Assembly (NCBI RefSeq): GCF_021484805.1
Contig: NZ_CP090557.1
Span: forward strand, 1,810,001-1,874,000
DNA from: Tellurirhabdus bombi
GTDB lineage: Bacteria; Bacteroidota; Bacteroidia; Cytophagales; Spirosomataceae
DNA length: 64,000 bases
Reading direction: 5' to 3'
Part shown: positions 24,423 to 38,140 of the stretch, in pieces
How positions within the stretch are numbered: position 1 is the first letter of the stretch
Layout of the letters: each line of letters opens with the position of its first letter
The notes under the pieces: generated by a model
Databases searched by the model: none
The model's input: the letters and a program-made list of their open reading frames with translations, nothing else
Told to the model about the DNA's origin: nothing
Program-made: the position numbers and the translations under genes

Positions 24423-25919
24423 TTAAAATTGGAAATAGATAAACTGGTTTGAGGTAAAGACGCCAAATAAATAGCACAGAAAGCACAGCAGCGGGAATAC
24501 CACAAAAAAGGCCAGGTTGCTGCGCGTTGGAATCGTAAAGTAGAACTTTTCTTTCCAGAACAAGGCCGCTACCAGCAGAAGACAGAACCAGAGTTCAGTC
24601 GTGTTTAGCGGCGAGCTTAGCGGACCTTCGAAAGGGGAAAACACAATTTTACTGATGATTTCCAATGCGTTGCCAACTGGCGCAAACCGGTTTCGGAAAA
24701 ATACCCACGTCAGCATCACCAGGATAAACGTTAGCGAAAGCTGGAAAAATTGATACGCTTTGTTTTCTTCCGGAAACTTGATGCCCCATTGGCTCAGAGC
24801 CTTGTCACGCCAGCCTGCCATTAACTGGTAAGCGCCGTGCAAGCCGCCCCAGACAATATAATTCCAGCTCGCGCCGTGCCACAAGCCGCTGACTAAAAAG
24901 ACGATAAATACATTCAGGTAGCGTCGGCTCTGGCTGACGCGGTTTCCCCCTAAAGGAATATATAAATAATCCCGGAACCAGGTGGAAAGTGAAATGTGCC
25001 AGCGCCGCCAGAATTCAGCGATGGAACGGGAAAAGTAAGGCGTTCTGAAATTCTCCATGAGCGTAAAACCCATGGTTCGGGCAGAGCCGATGGCAATGTC
25101 GGAGTAGCCCGAAAAGTCGCAATAAATCTGAATGGTGAAAGCCAGGGTGGCTACCAGCAGTGTCAGACCATTGTGTTCGCTGGAGTTATTGTAAGCATGA
25201 TCGACGATCAGGCCCAGCCGGTCGCCAATGACTACTTTCTTGAAAAAGCCAAACGCCATCTGCATCAATCCAGCCTTGACATTTTCGAAATCGTATTTGA
25301 AATACGTGTGAAACTGGTGCAGTACGTTTTGTGGCCGTTCGATGGGTCCCGCTACCAATTGCGGGTAAAACATGACATACAGCGCATAAATCCCGAAATG
25401 GGACTCTGCTTTCTGATTACCCCGGTAAACTTCAATCGTGTAGCTCATGGCCTGGAACGTATGAAACGACAGGCCAATCGGTAGAAAGGCTTCGACAAGG
25501 GCAAATGACGTAGCGGGTTGCTGGCCAAACAGCAGCAGAACTTTGTTCAGAATTTGCAGACCCGCGCTGTTGGTTCGCTGGGCAGCCGCATCCAGACCTA
25601 GCTGATCAAGAAAAGTAACAGCAATGTCGGTAAAGAACCCGAAATATTTAAAAAAAGCCAGAATCCCGATGTTAGAAATCAGGCTGATAATCAGCAACCA
25701 CTTGCGGTTGGAGCCCTGCGTTCGCTCAATCCACAGGCCAGCGTAGTAGTCAATGACAATGGTCAGGAAAAGAATGAGGATGTAGGCTGGCTTGAAAACG
25801 AGGTAAAAATAGCAACTCGCTAACAAAAGTAGCACCCAGCGTCCTTTCCACGACAGACTGTAATACGCTAGCGTAACAACCAGGAAGAAAAGCAGGAACT
25901 GTAATGAATTAAACAGCAT
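24423..25919 (-). CDS. MBOAT family membrane O-acyltransferase
   Basis: A 498-residue polytopic protein of the AlgI/DltB branch. About ten hydrophobic helices; the conserved active-site region reads GLWHGASWNYIVWGGLHG with the invariant His348 and second His361, and the family motif QYxDFSGYSDIAIGSAR appears as IYCDFSGYSDIAIG. It moves an acyl group (often acetyl) across the membrane onto a surface polymer or lipid. AlgI-type enzymes usually work with an SGNH-fold periplasmic partner (AlgJ/AlgX/DltD type); none is nearby. It is last in a long minus-strand gene set, with its ATG overlapping the end of the glycosyltransferase gene by 11 bp, so its acceptor is probably the glycan made there. Alginate itself is not implied. 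Confidence 0.92.
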   Translation of the reverse strand: MLFNSLQFLLFFLVVTLAYYSLSWKGRWVLLLLASCYFYLVFKPAYILILFLTIVIDYYAGLWIERTQGSNRKWLLIISLISNIGILAFFKYFGFFTDIAVTFLDQLGLDAAAQRTNSAGLQILNKVLLLFGQQPATSFALVEAFLPIGLSFHTFQAMSYTIEVYRGNQKAESHFGIYALYVMFYPQLVAGPIERPQNVLHQFHTYFKYDFENVKAGLMQMAFGFFKKVVIGDRLGLIVDHAYNNSSEHNGLTLLVATLAFTIQIYCDFSGYSDIAIGSARTMGFTLMENFRTPYFSRSIAEFWRRWHISLSTWFRDYLYIPLGGNRVSQSRRYLNVFIVFLVSGLWHGASWNYIVWGGLHGAYQLMAGWRDKALSQWGIKFPEENKAYQFFQLSLTFILVMLTWVFFRNRFAPVGNALEIISKIVFSPFEGPLSSPLNTTELWFCLLLVAALFWKEKFYFTIPTRSNLAFFVVFPLLCFLCYLFGVFTSNQFIYFQF

Positions 25920-26898
25920 TTTTCTGCTCGTCCGGTATCAAAAAATTTCTATCTAACTGGCGTTCCTGCTCGCAAATCACCTCTCGAACGACATACAAAG
26001 GCCGCCCTTTTGTCTGGAAGAAAATACGCAGCACGTATTCACCAATCAATCCCAAGGCAATTAGTTGAACCCCGCTGAAGAGGATCAGCAGAAAAATCAT
26101 AGCCGTGAAGCCTTCGGGGACATCGTTAAAGACATATTTTTTAATCAATGTCTGGATGAAGTAAATGACCGCAATACCAATAGAAGCCACCCCAAGTTGC
26201 GTAACAAATTTGATCGGAAATTCACTGAAGTTGAAAATCCCGTTGTATGCCAACTTACGCAGCATTTTGAACGTGTATTTTGCCTCTCCGGCTGCGCGGG
26301 CATCGCGTTCGTACTCAACACCGACCTGCTTGAAACCAATCCAGGTCCGCATTCCCCGAATAAATCGGCTTTCTTCCGGCATTTTATTCAGTACATCAGC
26401 GACGCGGCGGCTAATTAGGGAAAAATCACCGCTATCAAGGGGAATATCGACGTAGGAAATAGACTTCATGAAGCGGTAGAACAGAAAATAAGCAGTTTTC
26501 TTCAAAAAGCCTTCTTTCCGTTTTTTGCGAACGGCATAGACTACATCATAGCCTTGTTTGTACTTTTCGTAGAACTGTGGTAGAAGCTCCGGGGGGTCCT
26601 GCAAGTCTCCGTCAATAACAAATAAGGCTTCCGTGCCCCGGGCCGTGGCCATGCCAGCCGTCAGGGCAATCTGGTGACCGTAATTACGCGAGAGGAAGAT
26701 ACAGTGGTAACGCGCATCGGTCAGGGCAACCTGCTGCATGAGCTGTGCCGTGTTATCTCGGCTGCCGTCGTCGATCAAAACTACCTCAATTGAAAGCGGT
26801 GACGTGTCCATTAGGGCATTTAAACGAGCAACCAGAAGCGGAAACGTTTCACGCTCGTTATAGAGGGGCGCTACGATGGAAATCTGTGGTGCAGACAA
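25909..26898 (-). CDS. Polyprenyl-phosphate glycosyltransferase, GtrB/DPM1-like
   Basis: A 329-residue family 2 glycosyltransferase. The GT-A domain (residues 1-235) shows ISIVAPLYNERE, the nucleotide-binding VVLIDDGSRDNT, and DGDLQDPPE, the DxD-containing signature of enzymes that put a sugar on a polyprenyl phosphate carrier (GtrB, ArnC, dolichyl-phosphate mannose synthase). Two C-terminal membrane helices (about 230-255 and 270-295) are typical of GtrB. The product, a lipid-linked monosaccharide, would be flipped and used as donor by GT-C enzymes outside the membrane. Its neighbours include polytopic proteins of GT-C appearance and a DMT-type transporter, which fits this scheme. It overlaps the MBOAT gene by 11 bp and is 109 bp after the 584-residue protein gene. 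Confidence 0.9.
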   Translation of the reverse strand: MSAPQISIVAPLYNERETFPLLVARLNALMDTSPLSIEVVLIDDGSRDNTAQLMQQVALTDARYHCIFLSRNYGHQIALTAGMATARGTEALFVIDGDLQDPPELLPQFYEKYKQGYDVVYAVRKKRKEGFLKKTAYFLFYRFMKSISYVDIPLDSGDFSLISRRVADVLNKMPEESRFIRGMRTWIGFKQVGVEYERDARAAGEAKYTFKMLRKLAYNGIFNFSEFPIKFVTQLGVASIGIAVIYFIQTLIKKYVFNDVPEGFTAMIFLLILFSGVQLIALGLIGEYVLRIFFQTKGRPLYVVREVICEQERQLDRNFLIPDEQKNAV

Positions 26899-27007
26899 AG
26901 TTAGTCGATGGTTGGTCTTATACTGAGCTCAAAATTACACCTTTTCGCTAACGCCTCCATACCAAATTGGGTTTTATTAGGAAACGTATACTTTATGGCG
27001 CTGATAC

Positions 27008-28762
27008 TCACTGGTTCAATTGGACATTTTTAGTACTTACGCGCAACTTCCAGTTGCTATAAATAACCTCTCGCTGGGGCTCCCGGACAACCAGCGTGCC
27101 AACGCGGTAGGTTCCTGGCCGAAGCGATTTTAACAGAATGGGCGTTGATTCATAGCCCGGCGCAAAATAGCGACCCTGGGTCAGGAAAAGGCGAATCCCA
27201 TTGCGGTTTTGCAGCGTAGGAAAAAGATAAGTTAATGAATCTGAGTGCAGAACGGTATAAGCACCGTCATCGAGACCGGAACCGCGCTCAAAACGCTCAT
27301 CCAGAATAGTTAAATAATTGGAATCAGGTGAAATCTGGGCAATCAGGCTCTGCCGAGCAGCTGTGTCCTGTTTGGCCAATGCGGCTAAACCGGTGTAAAT
27401 TCCTTCCGGAAAACGGTACGTTTTGGCTTCCAGTGCCATCAGAACGAACTTATCAACCGCCTCGCGGAATGACAAATAAATAGGAGACGAAGGTAAAGTC
27501 CGGGTATATTGCCAGGAGTAGGCATCGACCAGCAGAGTCCGCCGGAAATTAACCATGTGTTCGAAATACTGAAAATACCCCGACGTGAAAAAAAGAAGCC
27601 CAATACCAACAAAAACGCCAGCTACGTATCGACGCAACCGTTGGGGCACCCCCGCCAGCACCAGACCATACAAAACAAGCAAAGTTAGACTGGATATAAG
27701 TTTGTAGCGGCTGATGTAAATATCCTCGATGCCGTCGCCCGCCCGCGCTGTTGCGTAGGCCAGCATCGTAAGAAGCAGAATCAAAGCGCCTCCGGTCAGG
27801 AACAAAACCGGCTGCGGGAACCGACGAACGCGCTCGGCCGGAATGAGCAAGGCCATGGGCCAGCGAATAATTTTGTACTGACTTAAAAGGCCCAACAGCC
27901 AATAAGCTGCTCCCAGAAAAAGAGGAACGCCCACCACCGTTGTGACCAGCAAGCGTAGTTTCAGCGAGAATTTGAAGCCAGGATCGGCAGGCATTCCCAG
28001 AAAAGCGAAAAACTCCTGGATGACCACGCCCGGAAGTTGAATCAGGTTGTCGGTTAGTTTGGGGCGGTAAGCCGGAATTTCCAGGCGGTAATAGTATAGC
28101 CCAAGGAACGGCAGTATGCTGACTACCCAGATGATAAGTGCCCGATAGCGTTGCTGATAAAGCAAAATCAAAATGCCTATTGCCCAGGCAAAAGAGCCGT
28201 TGCTGTCGGTGCCGATGGCTATAATTCCCGTAATGATTGCCGCAATGAATGCCCAGCGCTGCGGTTTTGCGACCAGATAAAGCGTACAAAAAATTAGAAA
28301 ATAGACACTGAGGTGCTGCGTTGGCAGCATGCTCCACAGCACCGCTTCGTAATAACGCGGTTGAAACAGAATCAGGGAAACCGGAACGACAGCCCACCAC
28401 GCCATTCCTAACCGCCTAATGGTTTTAGCAAACAGCAACCACAAACCCGGTAGCGCCAGACAGCCCACAAAAATCTGGATCCGGTGGTCGTGAATCCCGT
28501 TAACCAGATAAATCAGGTACGCGATAAGGCGGGCAACAATGATGCGGCGTTCATCGTCCTGCACGTACAGAATATGCAGACTTTTCCAGAATCCGGGCCC
28601 TTTCGACAGCTCGGCTACCGGTCCCATAATCGCGTCAAAATCATCCTGATACGGCATGTTCACGGCGTAGCGAACCGTCCACCACGCAAAAAGCAGAATG
28701 GGAGCGAGCAAGATTGGCCAGATGAGCGCAGGGTGTTGGATGAGGCGGTAGCGATTTTTCAT
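27008..28762 (-). CDS. Polytopic membrane protein with GT-C-like architecture, paralogue A
   Basis: 584 residues. One N-terminal helix is followed at once by YAVNMPYQDDFD (Asp40-Asp41 at the start of the first outer loop), then about ten more helices up to residue 410, and a soluble C-terminal part ending in a beta-rich segment LRPGTYRVGTLVVREP. An acidic pair in the first periplasmic loop is the catalytic hallmark of GT-C enzymes that use lipid-linked sugars, though I cannot show glycosyltransferase activity. It is a diverged copy of the next gene upstream: shared elements include YAVN(M/V)P, 'SNG(S/L)F(A/G)W', 'LxLxQPxx' and the C-terminal 'PGTY(R/Q)VG'. Nine bp separate the two genes. I do not recognise a named family. 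Confidence 0.7.
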   Translation of the reverse strand: MKNRYRLIQHPALIWPILLAPILLFAWWTVRYAVNMPYQDDFDAIMGPVAELSKGPGFWKSLHILYVQDDERRIIVARLIAYLIYLVNGIHDHRIQIFVGCLALPGLWLLFAKTIRRLGMAWWAVVPVSLILFQPRYYEAVLWSMLPTQHLSVYFLIFCTLYLVAKPQRWAFIAAIITGIIAIGTDSNGSFAWAIGILILLYQQRYRALIIWVVSILPFLGLYYYRLEIPAYRPKLTDNLIQLPGVVIQEFFAFLGMPADPGFKFSLKLRLLVTTVVGVPLFLGAAYWLLGLLSQYKIIRWPMALLIPAERVRRFPQPVLFLTGGALILLLTMLAYATARAGDGIEDIYISRYKLISSLTLLVLYGLVLAGVPQRLRRYVAGVFVGIGLLFFTSGYFQYFEHMVNFRRTLLVDAYSWQYTRTLPSSPIYLSFREAVDKFVLMALEAKTYRFPEGIYTGLAALAKQDTAARQSLIAQISPDSNYLTILDERFERGSGLDDGAYTVLHSDSLTYLFPTLQNRNGIRLFLTQGRYFAPGYESTPILLKSLRPGTYRVGTLVVREPQREVIYSNWKLRVSTKNVQLNQ

Positions 28763-28771
28763 GGACGGTGG

Positions 28772-30466
28772 TTATGGAATGGTAATTTGCTGAGATGAAT
28801 AAACAATGCCCGACGGATCGGGAGCAATGTATAACCCAACTTGGTAGGTACCCGGATACAGCGCTGACTTCAGCACCTCGGCAGCTAGACCGCTGGCAGG
28901 GCCATTCAGGTAGAAAGGCCGCGGACGAAACTGAGTGATAATCGGAAAAAGATACGTATGCGCTGCCGACTTTACAATGACGCAGGCGCGTTGCGAACCG
29001 CGCACAACTGGTCCATCAAAGGAGCTAACCCAGAAACTATCGCCTTGCTCTTCGACTTTGAACTGCAAGTTTTTGTCCAGCTTAGTCGGAATCGGAGCCA
29101 GGAGCGCTTTCTCCGCCGAGGATGTAAACATATTATCGGGATAGCGGTAAAATCCTTGGCTAACAGCGCCTTCCATCCATTGCTTCATGAAGGTGCCGTA
29201 CGTAGTACCTACCATAGCGCCGAGGCCATTGCCGTTGTGTTTTTGGTTAAAAGCAAACGCTTCGATGCGCTGTTTACGCTCGGCCAGAGCGGGCAAGTGC
29301 CAGAAATACATGACTCCCCAGACAAGCGTACCGATACCGATTCCGCCCCAAACATAGCGTTTTAGCCACTTGCTGTTTTTGGCTTCACTCAGCAGGTTCA
29401 GGTAAATTAGACACACCAATAGCGACGGATACAGCATGTAATTGCTAATAAGCATGACACTGTAGCCAAATCGCGGACGCAAAAAGGCTACAACCACCGC
29501 ATTCACGAGTAAGAAACCATATCCGCCAACGAAGAAGTAACGCCGTTTTGCCAGGTCGATAGGGGCGTGGAGGACTGATTTAGGCCAGGGCCACAGCATT
29601 TTCCAAAGCAGGAAAAGAAGGGTTGGCAGCAGGGCGAAACCCGCCAGTGTGGGCAAAATACTCCGTCGGAAAATTTCGGCTTCCGGGAAAAAATCGAATT
29701 GGCCGCCGAGAAATGTGAAAAAGCCGAAGAAAACCAGGTGCGGATTTTTTAGAAAAAAGCCGATGCTACTTTCATTGCCCTGGGGATTGGCAAAATCGTG
29801 GAAATAGAAAAAGATCGCTGCGGCACCAATACCCAACCAGAACGCCAGTTTTTTAAACTCGCGCTGAACCAGCAAAACCCCGGCCCCCGCTACCCAGCCA
29901 AACAATCCGTTACTCATGGAAAAGGAGGCCAGTAACTGAACCAGCAACGCGCCGCCGAAGCGTTTAGACGTCTGCTCCGCCAGCAAATAAAGGCTGCTAA
30001 AAACCAGAAAAGCGGCAGCTTCGTGCTGGAGGGCCGTGATCGCCCAATTGCTGGTCAGGTGAAACTGAGGCTGAAGCAATAAGAGCGGAACGGGTAGAAA
30101 CGCCAACAGGGGCAGGCGTAGCGATTGAAAAATGCGGAAGAAATAAAAAAGCAGCCCGAGCAAACAGCCGAAAGCAATAAAAATCAATCCGCGAAAGTTG
30201 ACTTCACCCGTTAGGCTGTGCATTCCGACGGTGGCGAGTTTGGCAAACAGAATGCGGTGTTCATTATTGGGCTTGAACAACCAGTAAATCTTGTCGGAAA
30301 GCTGATCCGTTTTAAGATACGTCAGCATAAAGCCGATAAACGACTCGACGTCATCCATCCACGGAACGTTGACGGCATAGTTTAGCAAAAGCCCCGTAAA
30401 ACAAACGATGGGTAGGGCGATCAAAACCGGAGAAATCCGTTTGAGCGGCTCCGAAACGTGCATCAT
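28772..30466 (-). CDS. Polytopic membrane protein with GT-C-like architecture, paralogue B
   Basis: 564 residues, about eleven hydrophobic helices and a C-terminal soluble segment. After the first helix it reads YAVNVPWMDDVES, placing Asp38-Asp39 at the same spot as the acidic pair of paralogue A; then NNEHRILFAKL corresponds to DDERRIIVARL in A, LLLLQPQFH to LILFQPRYY, SNGLFGWVAGAGVLLVQ to SNGSFAWAIGILILLYQ, and LYPGTYQVGLYI to LRPGTYRVGTLV. The two are thus tandem duplicates that have diverged strongly. It starts 2 bp after the stop of the DUF6056-like gene, indicating one operon. Glycosyl transfer from a polyprenyl-linked donor is a reasonable guess, not a demonstrated role. Confidence 0.7.
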   Translation of the reverse strand: MMHVSEPLKRISPVLIALPIVCFTGLLLNYAVNVPWMDDVESFIGFMLTYLKTDQLSDKIYWLFKPNNEHRILFAKLATVGMHSLTGEVNFRGLIFIAFGCLLGLLFYFFRIFQSLRLPLLAFLPVPLLLLQPQFHLTSNWAITALQHEAAAFLVFSSLYLLAEQTSKRFGGALLVQLLASFSMSNGLFGWVAGAGVLLVQREFKKLAFWLGIGAAAIFFYFHDFANPQGNESSIGFFLKNPHLVFFGFFTFLGGQFDFFPEAEIFRRSILPTLAGFALLPTLLFLLWKMLWPWPKSVLHAPIDLAKRRYFFVGGYGFLLVNAVVVAFLRPRFGYSVMLISNYMLYPSLLVCLIYLNLLSEAKNSKWLKRYVWGGIGIGTLVWGVMYFWHLPALAERKQRIEAFAFNQKHNGNGLGAMVGTTYGTFMKQWMEGAVSQGFYRYPDNMFTSSAEKALLAPIPTKLDKNLQFKVEEQGDSFWVSSFDGPVVRGSQRACVIVKSAAHTYLFPIITQFRPRPFYLNGPASGLAAEVLKSALYPGTYQVGLYIAPDPSGIVYSSQQITIP

Positions 30467-30468
30467 GG

Positions 30469-31932
30469 TTATTTTGTCTGAAGTTGGGTGGTGCTGTCTC
30501 CAACGGCCTGTGCGTTGACTTCGCCTAGACGCACCCCATTTTTGTGATAATAACTAGCCCAGCATTTGTTCCAGAGATGCTGCGGATTTGGGGTGATGTC
30601 TTCCAGCACCAAAGAGGCGGGAAAAGCGGCCAAAGGAGCCAGAACCACCGTATCGGCAGGACTAGCGGCCATTTGCTGGTAACGCGCTTTCATGGCCAGA
30701 TCATACTGAGCAGCCCGACCGGACCGCCAGTCGCTGTACATCATTTTCAGGTTTGAATTGGCATAGGTAGTGAAAAGAAGCCCTAAACCAGCCACGGCAA
30801 CCAGGGGCCAATTATAGTCAGTCAAGAGAGAAACGTCGCCGATGCGCTGCCGAAACACCCGGACCCAGATAATGAGGTTGTAGAACCAGCCAAGGATAAA
30901 AACGATATTAACGGCGTTCATCAAGCGCGCAACCGGTGGAATTCCAACCGCCCAGAAGTGCAGGAACGTCAAGGCAAACAAGGTTGAACCAAAATAAAGC
31001 AAGGCCAGTAACGGATGCACGAAAAAATAAGGCCGCACCACGCTCCGTCCTTCCGTAAGCCGAAAAGCCAAAGGCAGGAAAAGCAGCGATAAGGGCAGAA
31101 TAGGTGTTTTGACCAGCAGTTTTGGAAAATAACCTAAGCTGTATTTAAGCGTCTCCACCACCGAAAAAACCAGGTTCTGATTCTGTGGATTTCCTGACAT
31201 TCGTACAGCATTACCGGGTGCCTGAAGCAGAAAAAAGCAGCAGATCACGGCCCAAACCAGCAAAGAAATAAACGAAACCGGAATCTTACGTCGGTACAGC
31301 ACCATGCAAAGCAGCAGCATGGCCAACAGGGACATGGCCATAACCATGCTGGTTTCGCTGGAACCGATAATTCCCATGACCAAAAAAGCCTCCGCAATGA
31401 ACAGGGGCGTTGAAAACTGGAACTTATGGCGGTCATGAATAATGAACACGCCTAGCAACAGAATGAGAAAAATGCAGGAGAGCGAATAACAGGCTAGTCC
31501 GGTATACCAGTAAAAAAATTCCGCAATGGTCGCCAGACTCGTTATGGTCAAAAAAGTGCCGCCGGAAGCCATAACCAACTGATCAACGGGCGATAAAATG
31601 TGGCGGGTGAGCTGGCGGGCCAATACGTAAAAGCTGGACCACAGCAAGCCTAGCACCAGAATCGGAAAAACATGGTACCCGTCAATCCAGCCCCACACCA
31701 TGGGATTGGTGTGGACAATGAAGTTATGGAAAAAACGCCCGGTCCAACCGTTGTAATAAAAAACCTGTGCCTGCCAGAATCCGAACTTGATTACGGTATC
31801 CGTAAAACAGTAATCATCGGTGGGGGAGGGATGATTGTAGAAAGCCAGAACGACTAACAGAAAACCCGCCAGAAACAGGCAGCCCGTCAGAATAATTCCA
31901 ACGATCAGCCGTGGTAAGAAAGCTACATTCAT
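30469..31932 (-). CDS. DUF6056-like polytopic membrane protein
   Basis: 487 residues with about eleven membrane helices. The N-terminal helix is followed by NHPSPTDDYCFTDTVIKFG (Asp39-Asp40), then YYNGWTGRFFHNF, the pattern I associate with the DUF6056 family of bacterial membrane proteins found in surface-polysaccharide clusters. The C-terminus (about residues 395-487) is soluble and includes MMYSDWRSGRAAQYD and a region with NPQHLWNKCWASYYHKNGV. Like its two downstream neighbours it has the acidic pair directly after helix 1, but it shares no other obvious similarity with them. Its ATG overlaps the stop of the EamA gene (TAATG), so translation is coupled. Confidence 0.75.
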   Translation of the reverse strand: MNVAFLPRLIVGIILTGCLFLAGFLLVVLAFYNHPSPTDDYCFTDTVIKFGFWQAQVFYYNGWTGRFFHNFIVHTNPMVWGWIDGYHVFPILVLGLLWSSFYVLARQLTRHILSPVDQLVMASGGTFLTITSLATIAEFFYWYTGLACYSLSCIFLILLLGVFIIHDRHKFQFSTPLFIAEAFLVMGIIGSSETSMVMAMSLLAMLLLCMVLYRRKIPVSFISLLVWAVICCFFLLQAPGNAVRMSGNPQNQNLVFSVVETLKYSLGYFPKLLVKTPILPLSLLFLPLAFRLTEGRSVVRPYFFVHPLLALLYFGSTLFALTFLHFWAVGIPPVARLMNAVNIVFILGWFYNLIIWVRVFRQRIGDVSLLTDYNWPLVAVAGLGLLFTTYANSNLKMMYSDWRSGRAAQYDLAMKARYQQMAASPADTVVLAPLAAFPASLVLEDITPNPQHLWNKCWASYYHKNGVRLGEVNAQAVGDSTTQLQTK

Positions 31933-32855
31933 TACTCAACAATTACCTTATTAAAATGCCGACTCAGCACTGGATAGGCGAGTACAGCCAGTAAGATGAC
32001 CAGTGTTCCGGCGTAAAATCCTGTTGTCATGCGTTCGCTTTCGCCAAAAACCAGGTAAGCCAGCAGGATGCCATAAACCGGCTCCAGATTGACCGTCAGG
32101 TTGATCGCAAAGGCTGTAAACTTACGCATGAGTTTAACAGAAGCAGCGTAGGCATAAACAGTACATACTAGAGCCAGAATGACAATCCAGATCCAGTCGT
32201 TGGGAGCCGGGATTATGGCCATCGGTTCATTCGAAAGTCCCAAATATAACCCCAGCCCTAGCAATGAACCCAGAAAAGCACCGCCCATTTCGTAAAAGGT
32301 TATTATCTGAGCCGGATAGCGGTGCGTAAATTGACTGTTAATGATGGAAAAAACAGCGGCTAACATGGCCGAGAAAATAGCAACCGATAGCCCCAGGGCT
32401 TTATCAAATTCAAACCGAAAAATCATGTAAAGTCCGGCAATAATAACCAGACCCAGTCCAACTTCCAGCGTTTGAATGCGGCGTCTAACAACCAGTGGCT
32501 CAAGCAAACTCGTCCAGAGCGAGCAGGTGGCCATACCGGCCAGACAGACCGAAGCGTTGGCAATGCGGGCCGCTCCGAAAAAAGCCACCCAATGCACCGC
32601 AATGATAACACCGGTTCCCAAGAGCTTGAAACGATCTGCTGTCGGAACGGCAAAGGATTTCTTTTGCAGAAGCAACAACGCACCCAAGCCGAGCGTGGCC
32701 AGCAAGGTCCGGTACATGACCAGAGGAAGCGAAGAAACACTGATCAGCAATCCCAGAATGGCCGTAAACCCCCAAATCAGCACAATAAAATGCAGGTGCA
32801 GGTAATCTTTAAGCGTTGGTTTTGTGCGCATGGAGCGTTGGCTACGGTCGGCCAA
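31932..32855 (-). CDS. EamA/DMT family transporter
   Basis: A 307-residue protein with ten predicted helices in two five-helix EamA repeats; the second repeat carries the YxLxxxxVxG-type pattern NLEPVYGILLAYLVFGE. Drug/metabolite transporter superfamily members export amino acids or metabolites, and relatives in the same superfamily (ArnE/ArnF) flip lipid-linked sugars. In this gene set either role is possible. It lies 3 bp after the LptF/G gene and overlaps the DUF6056-like gene by one base. The most likely start is the ATG at 32855, giving MADRSQRSMRTKPT before helix 1; a second ATG nine codons later would also serve. Confidence 0.85.
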   Translation of the reverse strand: MADRSQRSMRTKPTLKDYLHLHFIVLIWGFTAILGLLISVSSLPLVMYRTLLATLGLGALLLLQKKSFAVPTADRFKLLGTGVIIAVHWVAFFGAARIANASVCLAGMATCSLWTSLLEPLVVRRRIQTLEVGLGLVIIAGLYMIFRFEFDKALGLSVAIFSAMLAAVFSIINSQFTHRYPAQIITFYEMGGAFLGSLLGLGLYLGLSNEPMAIIPAPNDWIWIVILALVCTVYAYAASVKLMRKFTAFAINLTVNLEPVYGILLAYLVFGESERMTTGFYAGTLVILLAVLAYPVLSRHFNKVIVE

Positions 32856-32858
32856 TTT

Positions 32859-33935
32859 TTATCTTGGAATCGTATGGTACAGGATTAAGCCAATGGCCGC
32901 AAAAATAGCATTTGGCAGCCAGACCGCCACTAACGGATTCATATTCCCGGATTCGGCAATGCCTTTGGCCATCATGAAAAACAAGAGGTACACAAAAGCC
33001 AGAATAAAGCCCAGTGCCACCTGCCAGCCTACACCCCGGCGGCTTTTCCGGGCCGACATAATGACGCCAATGGCGGTGAGAATGATAATGGCGAAAGGCC
33101 GGGTCTGGCGGGCATATTTTTCGAGCAGGTAGGTCTCGACGCCATCGGCCCCCCGACTTTGCAGGAGTTCAATGTAACTGTTCAGCTCTGGAAATGTAAA
33201 GGTTTCGTAGAGGTTGTAATGATTGTCGAAATCCGACGGATACATATTCAGAAGCGTATCCACTTTCGGGCCGCGCGTGATGGTTTCCTGCAAGCCATTG
33301 ATGGTACGGATCGAATAATCATAAATGGTCCACTTCTTTTTTTGCATGTTCCACTCAATCCGGTCGCTGGAAAGTTTTTGCTGCAACTGGTTGTCTTTGA
33401 CTTTCTCCAGCGTGAACTTATAGCCCGTATTAACCTGATTGTTGTAGCTTTCCAGATAGGCATAAACGTCCGGAGCCACTTTCAGGTGAACATTGCGGCC
33501 AGAATACGTAAACTGATCTTTGATGTATTTCAGCTCGAAAGCGATCCGGGTTTTGTTGGCGCGCGGAATAATCCAGCCCACCAGAAAATACGTAGCTACC
33601 CCCAGCATAAGCGCCCCAATAAAATAAGGAACCAGAAAGCGAATAAAGCTAACGCCCGAACTCAGAATAGCGATAACCTCTGATTTGGCCGCCATGCGGG
33701 ACGTCATGAAAACTGCCGCAATAAAGACCATGAGTGGGCTGATGGTATTGGCCCAATACGGAATAAAGTTGAGGTAATAATCAAACAGAATTTTATCCGT
33801 GGGAGCGTTGTGTTTGTAAAAATCATCCACTTTCTCCGTGTAATCGATCATGACAACAACCAGCACGATCATCAAAACCACGAAAAGATACGTCAGGAGA
33901 AATTGCTTAAGAATATATTTGTCTAAGAGCTTCAT
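32859..33935 (-). CDS. LptF/LptG family lipopolysaccharide export permease
   Basis: A 358-residue protein of the YjgP/YjgQ family. Three N-terminal helices (starting LLDKYILKQFLLTYLFVVLMIVLV), a large periplasmic beta-jellyroll segment (about residues 130-275) and three C-terminal helices match the LptF/G layout. These proteins form the inner-membrane channel of the LptB2FG transporter that pulls lipopolysaccharide from the membrane toward the outer surface. The N-terminal MKLLDKYILKQFL is a typical LptG start. It is 34 bp downstream of the DtxR gene and 3 bp upstream of the EamA gene. Position at the head of a set with glycosyltransferase-like genes supports a surface-lipid theme. Confidence 0.92.
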   Translation of the reverse strand: MKLLDKYILKQFLLTYLFVVLMIVLVVVMIDYTEKVDDFYKHNAPTDKILFDYYLNFIPYWANTISPLMVFIAAVFMTSRMAAKSEVIAILSSGVSFIRFLVPYFIGALMLGVATYFLVGWIIPRANKTRIAFELKYIKDQFTYSGRNVHLKVAPDVYAYLESYNNQVNTGYKFTLEKVKDNQLQQKLSSDRIEWNMQKKKWTIYDYSIRTINGLQETITRGPKVDTLLNMYPSDFDNHYNLYETFTFPELNSYIELLQSRGADGVETYLLEKYARQTRPFAIIILTAIGVIMSARKSRRGVGWQVALGFILAFVYLLFFMMAKGIAESGNMNPLVAVWLPNAIFAAIGLILYHTIPR

Positions 33936-33969: not shown

Positions 33970-34626
33970 CTAACGACTGACTAAAAGATTTCGAGCTACT
34001 TCGTTACTAACAAATAACAATTTTTCACCATTGATCTGCACGGAGATCGATTTGTCGAACGAATTAGCGTCCTGGACATTAAGCTTACAACCCAAATTCA
34101 GGCCAGTTTTGTCCAGATGCTGTAAAAATTCCGTCGAATGCTCCAGTACGCCCATCACCTGCACTTCCTGACCAACCGGAATCTCCGATAATTTACGGTA
34201 TTCTACTTCCGGCATCTGACCCGCCGGGCTGGGAATTGGGTCGCCGTGGGGATCAAATTGCGGATAATCCAGGTAGGCATCCAGGCGCTCTACCAGTTCC
34301 TCCGACCGAATGTGTTCCAAATCTTCGGCCATCTCGTGTACTTCGTCCCAGCCAAAACCCAGCTTTTCGACCAGAAAAACTTCCCACAACCGATGGCGCC
34401 GGATTACTTTCAACGCAAGCCGTTTGCCTTCTTCAGTCAGGCGAACACCCTGGTACTTTTTGTAATGAATAAGGCTTTTTTCGGATAATTTACGCAGCAT
34501 GTCCGACACCGACGCGGCCTTTGTCGATGTCATTTCGGCCAGCGAATTGGTGGTTACCTCGCCCTCTTGCCGGGTAGAAAGGTAATAAATCGTTTTTAAA
34601 TAATTCTCCTCAGTGAATGAATGCAT
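33970..34626 (-). CDS. DtxR/MntR family metal-dependent repressor
   Basis: A 218-residue regulator. The N-terminal winged helix (residues 1-70: SFTEENYLKTIYYL, then VSDMLRKLSEKSLIHYKKYQGVRLTEEG) binds DNA; residues 75-140 form the dimerisation domain with metal-site candidates in HEMAEDLEHIRSEELVERLD and YPQFDPHGDPIP; residues 145-218 are a FeoA/SH3-like domain. Bound Mn or Fe turns such proteins into repressors of metal uptake. The gene is divergent from an Nramp transporter gene 228 bp away, and a palindrome matching the DtxR-type box lies between them. A -7 element TAAATTTG is at 34693-34686. The combination strongly suggests that it controls the Nramp gene and itself. Confidence 0.93.
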   Translation of the reverse strand: MHSFTEENYLKTIYYLSTRQEGEVTTNSLAEMTSTKAASVSDMLRKLSEKSLIHYKKYQGVRLTEEGKRLALKVIRRHRLWEVFLVEKLGFGWDEVHEMAEDLEHIRSEELVERLDAYLDYPQFDPHGDPIPSPAGQMPEVEYRKLSEIPVGQEVQVMGVLEHSTEFLQHLDKTGLNLGCKLNVQDANSFDKSISVQINGEKLLFVSNEVARNLLVSR

Positions 34627-34685: not shown

Positions 34686-34693
34686 CAAATTTA
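34686..34693 (-). promoter_or_regulatory. -7 element of the dtxR-type gene
   Basis: TAAATTTG on the minus strand, exact match to TAnnTTTG, 60 bp before the ATG. No good -33 TTTG is seen at the expected distance. Confidence 0.55.
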
Positions 34694-34718: not shown

Positions 34719-34734
34719 TTTAGATTAGTCTAAA
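34719..34734. promoter_or_regulatory. DtxR-type operator between dtxR and Nramp genes
   Basis: TTTAGATTAGTCTAAA: all pairs but one are symmetric, and it resembles the classical DtxR box core TTAGGTTAGCCTAA. It falls 25 bp beyond the dtxR -7 element and 22 bp before the Nramp -7 element, so it covers the -33 region of both. Confidence 0.75.
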
Positions 34735-34756: not shown

Positions 34757-34764
34757 TATATTTG
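34757..34764 (+). promoter_or_regulatory. -7 element of the Nramp gene
   Basis: TATATTTG, exact match to TAnnTTTG; the ATG follows 90 bp later. The 16-bp operator lies directly upstream. Confidence 0.55.
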
Positions 34765-34854: not shown

Positions 34855-36204
34855 ATGGGGGCATCAGTACTTTCAACCACCGAATCGAATCGCCAGGATA
34901 AATCGAAAAATGTAGACAATTCTCTTCCGGAAGTACACGCTAGTGTGCCGGTATTTGAGACTGGGTCTTTTTGGAAGCGTTTGATGGCCTTTATCGGGCC
35001 AGGAATGATGGTTGCCGTGGGGTATATGGATCCGGGAAACTGGGCAACCGACATTGCTGGCGGGTCTAGTTTTGGGTATACGTTACTTTCTGTGATCCTG
35101 ATTTCCAACGTGTTTGCTATCCTGTTGCAACACCTGGCTTTGAAACTGGGCATTGCCACGGACCGCGATTTGGCCCAGGCTTGCCGGGATCATTACAGCC
35201 GACCAACGGCCATTGTCTTGTGGGTTTTGAGCGAAGTAGCGATTGCTGCCTGCGATTTGGCCGAAGTCATCGGTTCGGCTATCGCCTTAAATTTACTTTT
35301 TCAGATTCCGCTCACCGTTGGGGTATGCATCACGGCAGTAGACGTGCTGCTGTTGCTATATCTGCAAAACAAAGGATTTCGCTGGCTGGAACGACTAGTG
35401 GCGGGGCTCATTTTCATTATCTTGGGCTGTTTTGCCTACGAAGTGATCGTGGCTAGTCCCGACTGGAGCGCTGTTGCGGGTGGGTTGATTCCGAAGCGTG
35501 AAATCATTACCAATCCGGCAATGTTGTACGTGGCCATTGGAATTTTGGGCGCTACCGTAATGCCACACAACCTGTATTTGCATTCCAGCATTGTACAAAC
35601 CCGCAACTACACGCGCAGCGAAGAAGGCCGACGAAATGCCATTAAGTTCGCAACCATTGATTCCACAGTATCGCTGTTTCTCGCGTTTTTCATCAACGCT
35701 GCCATTCTGGTGTTAGCCGCGGCGGCTTTTCACTTCTCAGGGAATCAGCACGTTGCCGATATTACCGACGCGCATGCCTTGCTCAATCCAGTGTTGGGTG
35801 CTACGATGGCCAGTACACTTTTTGCCATCGCTTTACTCGCATCCGGCCAGAACTCAACGCTGACCGGGACCTTGGCGGGGCAAATTGTGATGGAAGGTTT
35901 TCTGCACATTCGACTAAAACCCTGGTTACGCCGCTTGATTACGCGCTTGATTGCCATTGTGCCCGCCCTGATTGTAACCATTCTTTACGGCGAAAAAGGA
36001 ACCGCTGATCTGCTGGTGTTTAGTCAGGTGATTTTGTCTATTCAGCTAAGTTTCGCGGTGGTGCCTTTGGTTCAGTTCACCAGCGACCGTTTGAAAATGG
36101 GTCCTTTTGTAAATCCGAAGTGGATAAAGGTAATTAGCTGGGTGGTAGCCGTGCTTATAATCGGTTTGAATGGCGTTCTTCTGGCTCAGATAATCGGTTT
36201 CTAA
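34855..36204 (+). CDS. mntH: Nramp family Mn/Fe transporter
   Basis: A 449-residue divalent metal transporter with about eleven helices. Metal-coordinating motifs are intact: [16 protein letters not shown] in helix 1 (Asp and Asn of DPGN) and [18 protein letters not shown] in helix 6 (Met and His of MPH). Proton-coupled import of Mn(II) or Fe(II) across the inner membrane is expected. An N-terminal polar tail of about 35 residues precedes helix 1. It is transcribed away from the DtxR-type gene with a candidate operator in between. It ends 31 bp before the convergent 634-residue protein gene. Confidence 0.95.
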
Positions 36205-36235: not shown

Positions 36236-38140
36236 TTAGTCAAGGCGATAATACCGTTTGGTCAGGCTCATTTTTTCCTTGTATCCGAAACGGGAAACGC
36301 CCTCGGTTAGTAGGCGCACCTTCGTGACGTAATTATTGGTTCTCCCTTTTTTACTGAAATACTGCGCAAATTCCGCCAGACTGCGGGGGTGCGCTGGAAA
36401 TAGCAAGCCAGCTTTTAGCAAAGGCAACGCCGTTCTAACCGTATCCCGATTCCCTTCTTTATAGGTAAGCTCTAGTTTCAGGTGTGGCGGTTGCCAAAGC
36501 AGACGCGAAGTGTGACCTGCCAGGTTATAGTGACCCTGTAGTTGCCAAAGCTGTAGAGTATTAGCGCTATCCTGAACAGGCAATGTCTGGTTTAGTAAAC
36601 AGGACTGGGTTTCTGTCTTGACAGGCTCAAGCTTCAAAGGATTTGGGCGCTTCTGGAGAAAGAGCCACCCATTACTGGTATCAGCTACGGCGTAGGTTTG
36701 CAAGAGCGCCAGCTTTGTTACTGTCTCATCCGAAAAGGGAGAGCGGTCATCTGTAGAGGACCAATTAATGAGCAGTGCATCAGGTGCCCGTTCAGATAAG
36801 AAATGATTGGCGTTCAGCGAGTCCAGATAAGCGTTGGTTACCTGATAGGTTTGAATAACGGGGCGGGGCGCATAAGTAAGCCGATGGGCGTAAATAGCCG
36901 CAATGTCATACGGAATGCAATCGACCCGTTTACCCCGCAACTGAGTAAGCCAGCGCTCAGGCCAGTGGCTATGGCTAGGCGTTAGGCTTGGCTTCTGAGG
37001 ATTAACCACATCCTGAATATAAGCGGACCACTGGGGTACCCAGCGATACCAAAAGTTGCTTTCCCAGTGATAAGGAACACAGATTGGCGCTAGGCCAGTT
37101 ATGAGAGCGATGGGCAAGAAGGCCAACTGCCGAAGCAAAGGAGTGGCGGCGAAGAGCGCTAATAGCCCATAAGGCAGTAAGGCATATTTAAAGAACAAGC
37201 CAATATGCGACAAGTCGGCCCGTACGAAAGACTCTTTGAAGAGTACAAAGCACTGCAATAAAACCAGGAGTAAAAGGGTTCCATCCTGTTGCCGCGCTTG
37301 TTTTAGGGTACCTGATTTCCAGATTCGCCAGATTACGTAAAAAAGCACCCCCACTGACAAAGCGGTGATGCCAAGCCCGACCAGTAAAATTCGTCGGTCC
37401 GTTATCAGATACATAACATCGTTATAGGAATCGATAATCTGCCAACTAGCTAAGAGATAAGGACCTAACTTCACAGGTAAGAACCAGGCACTTACTCCCA
37501 AAAGGCCGAATGTACCCAGCAAGGCAGCGGCACAGGTGACGAGCTTGATGCGCCCTGAAAGGGTTTCGGCAACTACATAGAACAAGACGCTCAGGACGGT
37601 TACCAGACCAACATTTACCTTTAAATAAAATGTTAAGATAGACAGGCTTATGGCAACCGGCAAGAGCCATCGCTGGCCCGTTCTACGGTGGCAGGCCAGT
37701 GCGGCTAAAATCAAAAAATACAGTACGAAAGGATGCTCCTCGCCAGATGTTTGCCGGTGAATAACCGCCAAAACGAAAAGAACCAGATAGCGAATCAGCT
37801 GCGGACGGGAGCCTAGCGCCCACCAAACTACCAGTCCCATTCCTGCAAATCGAACGAAATCCAGCGCGACAATTCCCCAACTGGGAGCGGCAATGGGTAG
37901 GCGAGTAATCAGCCAACTCATTGGGCCGTAGGTAAATACAAATTCAGTGCCGTGGATCAAGCCAAGCTGCCGGGCCAGGTGTAGGCCGATTGTCCAGGAG
38001 CCATCCAGTCCGTTCTGCGGTTGGTTATAAACAGACCAACGATCAAAAAGTAAAGCAATTAAGAGAAAAGTGCCTGCCAAACGAATGAATGGAAATGGAT
38101 AAACTTGCCGCTGAGAAAAGCGACCGTTAGCAGGAATCAT
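36236..38140 (-). CDS. Polytopic membrane protein, GT-C-like, unknown function
   Basis: 634 residues, about ten to twelve helices followed by a soluble C-terminal third (from about residue 380). After helix 1 it reads NGLDGSWTIGLHLARQ, then GTEFVFTYGPMSWL, a pattern I associate with large membrane proteins resembling ArnT/PMT-type GT-C enzymes but without a named family. The C-terminal domain has a VDCIPYDIAAIYAH stretch and many short beta strands. It is a single gene, convergent with mntH and divergent from kup. Two 14-bp direct repeats flank its candidate promoter (separate entry). It shares the general layout, not clear sequence identity, with the three polytopic proteins at 27-32 kb. Confidence 0.65.
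   Translation of the reverse strand: MIPANGRFSQRQVYPFPFIRLAGTFLLIALLFDRWSVYNQPQNGLDGSWTIGLHLARQLGLIHGTEFVFTYGPMSWLITRLPIAAPSWGIVALDFVRFAGMGLVVWWALGSRPQLIRYLVLFVLAVIHRQTSGEEHPFVLYFLILAALACHRRTGQRWLLPVAISLSILTFYLKVNVGLVTVLSVLFYVVAETLSGRIKLVTCAAALLGTFGLLGVSAWFLPVKLGPYLLASWQIIDSYNDVMYLITDRRILLVGLGITALSVGVLFYVIWRIWKSGTLKQARQQDGTLLLLVLLQCFVLFKESFVRADLSHIGLFFKYALLPYGLLALFAATPLLRQLAFLPIALITGLAPICVPYHWESNFWYRWVPQWSAYIQDVVNPQKPSLTPSHSHWPERWLTQLRGKRVDCIPYDIAAIYAHRLTYAPRPVIQTYQVTNAYLDSLNANHFLSERAPDALLINWSSTDDRSPFSDETVTKLALLQTYAVADTSNGWLFLQKRPNPLKLEPVKTETQSCLLNQTLPVQDSANTLQLWQLQGHYNLAGHTSRLLWQPPHLKLELTYKEGNRDTVRTALPLLKAGLLFPAHPRSLAEFAQYFSKKGRTNNYVTKVRLLTEGVSRFGYKEKMSLTKRYYRLD

Follow-up and report, generated by a model that had tools for sequence, protein, structure and literature searches.

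A predicted transmembrane glycosylation and acylation locus behind mntR-lptG in Tellurirhabdus bombi and related Spirosomataceae

The window analyzed here is a stretch of 64,000 nucleotides from Tellurirhabdus bombi (family Spirosomataceae; assembly GCF_021484805.1, contig NZ_CP090557.1, positions 1,810,001 to 1,874,000), whose genome (G000) is a single contig of 4.94 Mb. Seven open reading frames (ORFs) on the minus strand, at window positions 24423-33935, probably belong for the most part to a system that glycosylates and acylates a surface glycan. In the direction of transcription they encode LptG (LptF/G), the lipopolysaccharide (LPS)-export permease (32859-33935; Pfam PF03739, 4e-70; NCBIfam TIGR04408, 1.3e-51, below the cut-off), an EamA transporter (31932-32855; PF00892, 4.6e-18), a DUF6056 protein (30469-31932; PF19528, 3.9e-13), two polytopic proteins designated PolyA (28772-30466) and PolyB (27008-28762), a family 2 glycosyltransferase designated GT2a (25909-26898; Pfam GT2, 7.9e-27) with two C-terminal transmembrane (TM) helices, and an MBOAT O-acyltransferase (24423-25919; PF03062, 5e-30). 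The junctions, in the same order, are +3, -1, +2, +9, +109 and -11 bp. Families were called with Pfam, NCBIfam, PHROG and PDB structure profiles, and AlphaFold models were compared with known structures in Foldseek. An earlier note, made from the DNA alone, had described the same seven genes, and ORF calling agreed exactly with its coordinates and six junctions; its family calls for LptF/G, EamA, DUF6056, GT2 and MBOAT were upheld in Pfam. PolyA and PolyB have no passing Pfam or NCBIfam assignment.

The gene set is conserved in other species. In a search of 84,980 species genomes, the PolyA profile detected 110 relatives; the best 80 of these 110 were examined, and all of them come from Spirosomataceae or close kin (Larkinella, Spirosoma, Fibrisoma, Fibrella, Fibrivirga, Dyadobacter, Arcicella, Runella, Telluribacter, Arundinibacter, Persicitalea, Rhabdobacter, Siphonobacter and others). 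The order MntR-LptG-EamA-[GT2b]-DUF6056-PolyA-GT2a-MBOAT, in which GT2b is a second GT2 gene carried in the cluster by most species, occurs in at least ten genera of the Spirosomataceae, a family that lives in soil and water. Gene order was counted in the 66 loci that span 19 kb or more: MntR-LptG-EamA-DUF6056-PolyA-(GT2)-MBOAT is kept in 48 of the 66, the full order with GT2b in 31, and the full order minus a recognised GT2b in 14, some of which have another GT2 of ~245 or ~320 residues in the position of GT2b. Start/stop codon overlaps recur at the DUF6056-PolyA and GT2b-DUF6056 junctions. Counted in 37 genomes of the family, co-occurrence was 26-0-1-10 for PolyA/DUF6056, 22-4-0-11 for PolyA/MBOAT and 20-3-2-12 for GT2a/MBOAT (Fisher p = 1e-4 to 3e-8, phylogeny ignored), and PolyA, DUF6056, GT2a and MBOAT co-occur even where the genes are dispersed, e.g. 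in genomes G003, G007 and G009. The gene set is a real conserved unit, far from chance; the earlier note had named an order confined to close strains as grounds for refutation, and the order extends well beyond them.

The first two of the seven genes stand apart from this core. LptG was present in 59 of 59 relatives, mostly as one clear copy, the second and weaker matches being LptF-sized (the window genome's own copy has 500 aa); it is a universal housekeeping gene and a neighbor of the cluster, not a core member. EamA was present in 50 genomes, 25 of which lack the core, and it adjoins LptG in 11 of these 25. In five core-bearing genomes EamA lies apart from LptG, and in Runella it is unlinked to the core. 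LptG-EamA is an older pair, since EamA stands beside LptG in 11 genomes without the core, and EamA is not a core gene. An apparent natural EamA-DUF6056 fusion in one locus (L043, an 808-aa ORF) was rejected, its first ~330 residues being an EamA region read out of frame. On these counts an LPS-export component no longer stands as the head of the set, nor EamA as its dedicated flippase, both of which had been proposed; the head is probably mntR, as described below.

GT2a is assigned, from its profile matches, as a GtrB-type polyprenyl-phosphate sugar synthase. It matched the PDB structure of sll0501 (GtrB) at 9e-67 and ArnC structures at 1.7e-44, the PHROG family 'GtrB-like O-antigen conversion' at 1.4e-88, PgfS at 2.9e-75 (below the cut-off) and PRK10714 at 3.7e-47. 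Up to three GT2 genes occur in the cluster. In the window genome the GT2b ortholog is located at ~395 kb, 1.44 Mb from the cluster (L164), and is 77.6% identical to the in-cluster gene of a sister genome, which excludes a simple loss. This second GT2 had been left out of the earlier account of the set, and so had mntR and the MBOAT's acyl-shuttle motif. The relocated gene (L164:5258-8434; G000 ~393-396 kb) lies directly 3' of a 722-aa polytopic ORF without a Pfam match.

The DUF6056 protein is placed in the GT-C fold by its model and is most likely a glycosyltransferase. Its AlphaFold model (pLDDT 93.6) matched PglB and yeast STT3 in Foldseek with E-values of 4.8e-4 to 9.4e-4 and a probability of 1.0. 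PolyA is probably a GT-C glycosyltransferase too and carries a periplasmic beta domain at its C-terminus; its model (pLDDT 94) had AftA, STT3, PimE, Pmt4 and PglB as top membrane matches, at E-values of at least 0.06. GT-C enzymes carry a catalytic acid just after TM1, and an invariant acidic pair follows TM1 directly in both families (D39/D40 in DUF6056, D38/D39 in PolyA). Sequence searches of the two profiles against solved structures gave nothing useful, and profile comparison found no homology between them (probability 1.9), so that PolyA and DUF6056 do not form one family. PolyA-family proteins occur in up to ten copies per genome. PolyB, a GT-C-like paralog 28% identical to PolyA, is placed by the tree outside the clade of PolyA orthologs (SH-aLRT 100) and is found at the cluster site only in the genus of the window genome; Arcicella and Pseudarcicella have different PolyA-like paralogs at that site. 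The two polytopic proteins, earlier called duplicated, are indeed paralogs, PolyB being an old one and not a recent tandem copy.

Other polytopic proteins were observed near these families. The window itself encodes a 634-aa polytopic protein without a Pfam family (36236-38140, minus strand); its gene has mntH on one side and a KUP potassium transporter gene on the other, and it may be GT-C-like as well. In two other loci (L100:12936-15521 and L172:3798-6448), GT2a and MBOAT have as neighbors a pair of polytopic proteins of 419-437 aa with no Pfam match, which are possibly alternative GT-C partners. A second locus of the same logic is present in the window genome (G000:C1 3822-3833 kb; L169:2128-12688), with a PMT_2 GT-C, a split transketolase, an epimerase-GT2 fusion (666 aa), two PolyA-family GT-Cs and Acyl_transf_3; the epimerase-GT2 fusion with PolyA-family neighbors recurs in many related genomes.

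The MBOAT matches DltB structures (2.8e-35), and its His308 and His348 are invariant in the cluster MBOATs. All 62 of 62 cluster MBOATs end in FIYFQF. FXYXXF is the acyl-shuttle motif of MBOAT-SGNH systems, and an acyl-tyrosine intermediate was shown for PatA (PMC12148441); because FIYFQF fits this pattern, it is taken as the acyl-tyrosine shuttle motif. The two other MBOATs of the window genome (L167:6923-9324 and L168:6467-8763) also end in FIYFQF, with an SGNH-like ORF next after each of them (316 and 295 aa); these ORFs were assigned by motif alone, with no Pfam match. The L167 paralog is part of a polysaccharide cluster that also contains a flippase-like gene. Among the cluster neighbors tested, the sole twin-GDSL (SGNH) ORF was found in Larkinella, shortly 3' of the MBOAT (L084:15056-16528), and is a candidate acyl-transfer partner.

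Upstream of lptG, on the same strand and 34 bp away in the window, lies mntR (33970-34626), which encodes a manganese-responsive regulator of the DtxR family (PF02742, 4e-33). Over the 56 loci used for the junction and operator counts, the median gap between MntR and LptG is 20 bp. A palindrome, TTTAGR-N4-YCTAAA, is located 5' of mntR and is a candidate MntR operator (in the window TTTAGATTAGTCTAAA, 34719-34734, without strand); it is exact in 53 of 56 loci and has at most one mismatch in 55 of 56, with 0.6% in shuffles, and it is absent in loci where LptG is not behind MntR. The divergent mntH gene on the plus strand (34855-36204; NCBIfam PRK00701 MntH, 1.5e-195), an Nramp manganese transporter, is given for context only. 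The sequence TAnnTTTG is the -7 element of Bacteroidota promoters. It flanks the operator on both sides, on the mntR side (TAAATTTG, 34686-34693, minus strand) in 52 of 53 loci at a fixed distance of 25-26 nt, and on the mntH side (34757-34764, plus strand) in 52 of 53 at ~20 nt; about 3 of the 53 would be expected in shuffles. No such element was found before lptG (0/56), DUF6056 after EamA (0/22), PolyA (0/52) or DUF6056 after GT2b (0/38). It precedes GT2b after EamA in 29 of 29 loci, and GT2a in 55 of 64 loci from ten genera, mostly 34-40 nt 5' of the gene (shuffled expectation 3.6); in the window this element, TAATTTTG, is at 26930-26937 on the minus strand, 39 nt 5' of GT2a. A scan for sigma-70 promoters and terminators was near background, a result that is expected for Bacteroidota.

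Because the operator and the elements precede mntR and none precedes lptG, mntR is the probable head of the operon. Two transcripts are predicted in the window, since TAnnTTTG lies before mntR and GT2a and not before lptG, DUF6056 or PolyA: mntR-lptG-eamA-DUF6056-PolyA-PolyB under MntR control, and GT2a-MBOAT under its own promoter. Four operator matches were found in the window genome. One lies 5' of an ORF of 122 aa and a TonB-dependent receptor of 820 aa (L177:3400-6348; G000 ~147-150 kb), as would be expected of a metal regulon, and the receptor is possibly a manganese receptor. Two further matches were taken as chance: one falls within coding sequence, and the other follows closely on the end of an ORF and has no obvious target.

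Taken together, the locus is read as a multi-component system for transmembrane glycosylation and acylation that is specific to the Spirosomataceae lineage, with a probability of roughly two in three. The core would have been inserted into an operon that starts with mntR, 3' of the housekeeping genes lptG and eamA. GT2a, with GT2b in most species, would load a sugar onto polyprenyl phosphate on the inner side of the membrane, as its family suggests. A flippase would turn the lipid-linked sugar over, the candidates being GtrA-type proteins or EamA. The GT-C enzymes DUF6056 and PolyA, with PolyB in the window, would then act in the periplasm and add the sugars to a surface glycan. LPS is the likeliest acceptor, and is favored because the locus is tied to lptG, a link that is positional only. 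The MBOAT would load an acyl group on Tyr495 of FIYFQF and pass it outward, probably by way of an SGNH protein encoded elsewhere.

Several observations weigh against this reading. No dedicated flippase of the GtrA or Wzx type is encoded in the cluster; the absence of a GtrA-type protein, pointed out in the earlier note, holds for the cluster and not for the genome, in which two GtrA-family loci lie elsewhere. No SGNH partner stands beside the MBOAT in the window, and none is conserved across the loci. The fold match of PolyA is weak, with a best E-value of 0.06. In four of the 66 loci, all from Runella, the five-gene core GT2b-DUF6056-PolyA-GT2a-MBOAT occurs without LptG or EamA, which makes the link to LPS positional only. 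A conserved -33 TTG matching the -7 elements was not found. The operator may mainly serve mntH: it is absent in loci L047 and L068-L070, where MntR has no neighboring mntH. It is present in L055, which lacks mntH, and in L071 and L072, which have mntH and no core.

The acceptor could instead be protein. The GT-C enzymes would then O-glycosylate secreted or outer-membrane proteins in the periplasm and the MBOAT would acylate that glycan, in line with the oligosaccharyltransferases PglB and STT3 as best fold matches of DUF6056 and with the proximity of GT2a to PgfS of a protein glycosylation system. The GT-C fold is, however, common to LPS, glycolipid and protein transferases, so that the match does not discriminate, and the locus lies 3' of lptG in most species; protein O-glycosylation is considered unlikely. 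Rather improbable is a modification of lipid A or a glycolipid of the Arn type, in which GT2a would correspond to ArnC, EamA to the ArnE/ArnF flippase, and DUF6056 or PolyA to ArnT. EamA-family flippases do occur in Arn systems, LptG is the neighbor, and GT2a matches ArnC structures and PRK10714; GtrB is nevertheless a much better fit to GT2a, genomes that lack the core still inherit EamA together with LptG, and the cluster lacks Arn sugar genes.

Two further explanations concern the coherence of the set. The short junctions in the window and the adjacency of MntR-LptG-EamA in most loci would suit a single operon of seven genes, with LptG and EamA as functional components of one machinery, and the earlier note had seen the genes as nearly a single operon. 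This is very improbable: LptG is universal, 11 genomes have LptG-EamA and no core, the Runella core is intact away from lptG, and the conserved promoter element stands before GT2a-MBOAT. It is also quite improbable that the genes are merely co-inherited without a joint function, their order reflecting common descent in one family. The distribution is essentially confined to one family, and the genes behave as two distinct modules, GT2a-MBOAT and GT2b-DUF6056-PolyA; against this, co-occurrence holds where the genes are scattered, and the start/stop overlaps are recurrent.

Among known systems, the multi-component transmembrane glycosylation systems (PMC8035078, PMC11127046) are nearest in their working. 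In GtrA/GtrB/Gtr, CsbB-GtcA-YfhO and GtlA-GtcA-GtlB, as in the cluster, a GtrB-type synthase is encoded with GT-C membrane transferases. Unlike these, the Spirosomataceae cluster lacks a GtrA-type flippase, has adjacent genes of two unrelated GT-C families, as many as three GT2 genes and an added MBOAT, and occupies a chromosomal site behind mntR-lptG. The three-component system of pentofuranose addition (ORF15/ORF14/GT136; PMC11127046) likewise combines a donor synthase, a flippase and a GT-C enzyme, and its new GT-C family was also recognized by structure prediction; it uses a polyprenyl phosphoribose synthase and a MATE-type flippase, whereas the synthase of the cluster is of the GtrB type. 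PatA-PatB, AlgI-AlgJ-AlgX and DltB-DltX-DltD share with the cluster an MBOAT with catalytic His and the C-terminal FXYXXF acyl-tyrosine shuttle, but in the cluster no SGNH gene adjoins in a conserved manner and the MBOAT is encoded with glycosyltransferases. ArnC-ArnE/F-ArnT resembles the cluster in a related type of GT2, an EamA-family protein nearby and a GT-C transferase, and differs in that GT2a is nearer to GtrB, EamA belongs with LptG, and the GT-C families are not ArnT by sequence; no Pfam or NCBIfam match to an ArnT-type GT-C or to Arn sugar-nucleotide genes was found in the cluster. As these systems are usually encoded, the cluster lacks one defining feature of each: the flippase of the Gtr type and the adjacent SGNH gene of the MBOAT-SGNH type.

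DUF6056 was not mentioned in the literature searched, which also held nothing relevant on MntR with LptG or on the LPS of these genera. The chemistry is like that of known systems; the sugar-transferring enzymes and the genetic wiring are undescribed in that literature. The claim of an undescribed conserved set for glycosylation and acylation, with a GtrB-type GT2 and GT-C transferases, is supported in this form. A bolder possibility, which is held to be doubtful, is that Spirosomataceae place LPS export and decoration together under manganese control, with an MBOAT that has no dedicated SGNH partner and cooperates either with the GT-C enzymes or, in trans, with an SGNH protein.

The model-based assignments would give DUF6056 a structure-based function, that of a GT-C glycosyltransferase, and likewise the second, unnamed family of PolyA. 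An MBOAT that has a shuttle tail and no adjacent SGNH gene raises the biochemical question of its acyl acceptor. Through the sharply defined operator, a link from manganese sensing to LPS export or to glycosylation of the surface can be put to the test. If this link is true, with mntR heading an operon that includes the essential lptG and two new GT-C families, manganese starvation would remodel the cell surface of these bacteria.

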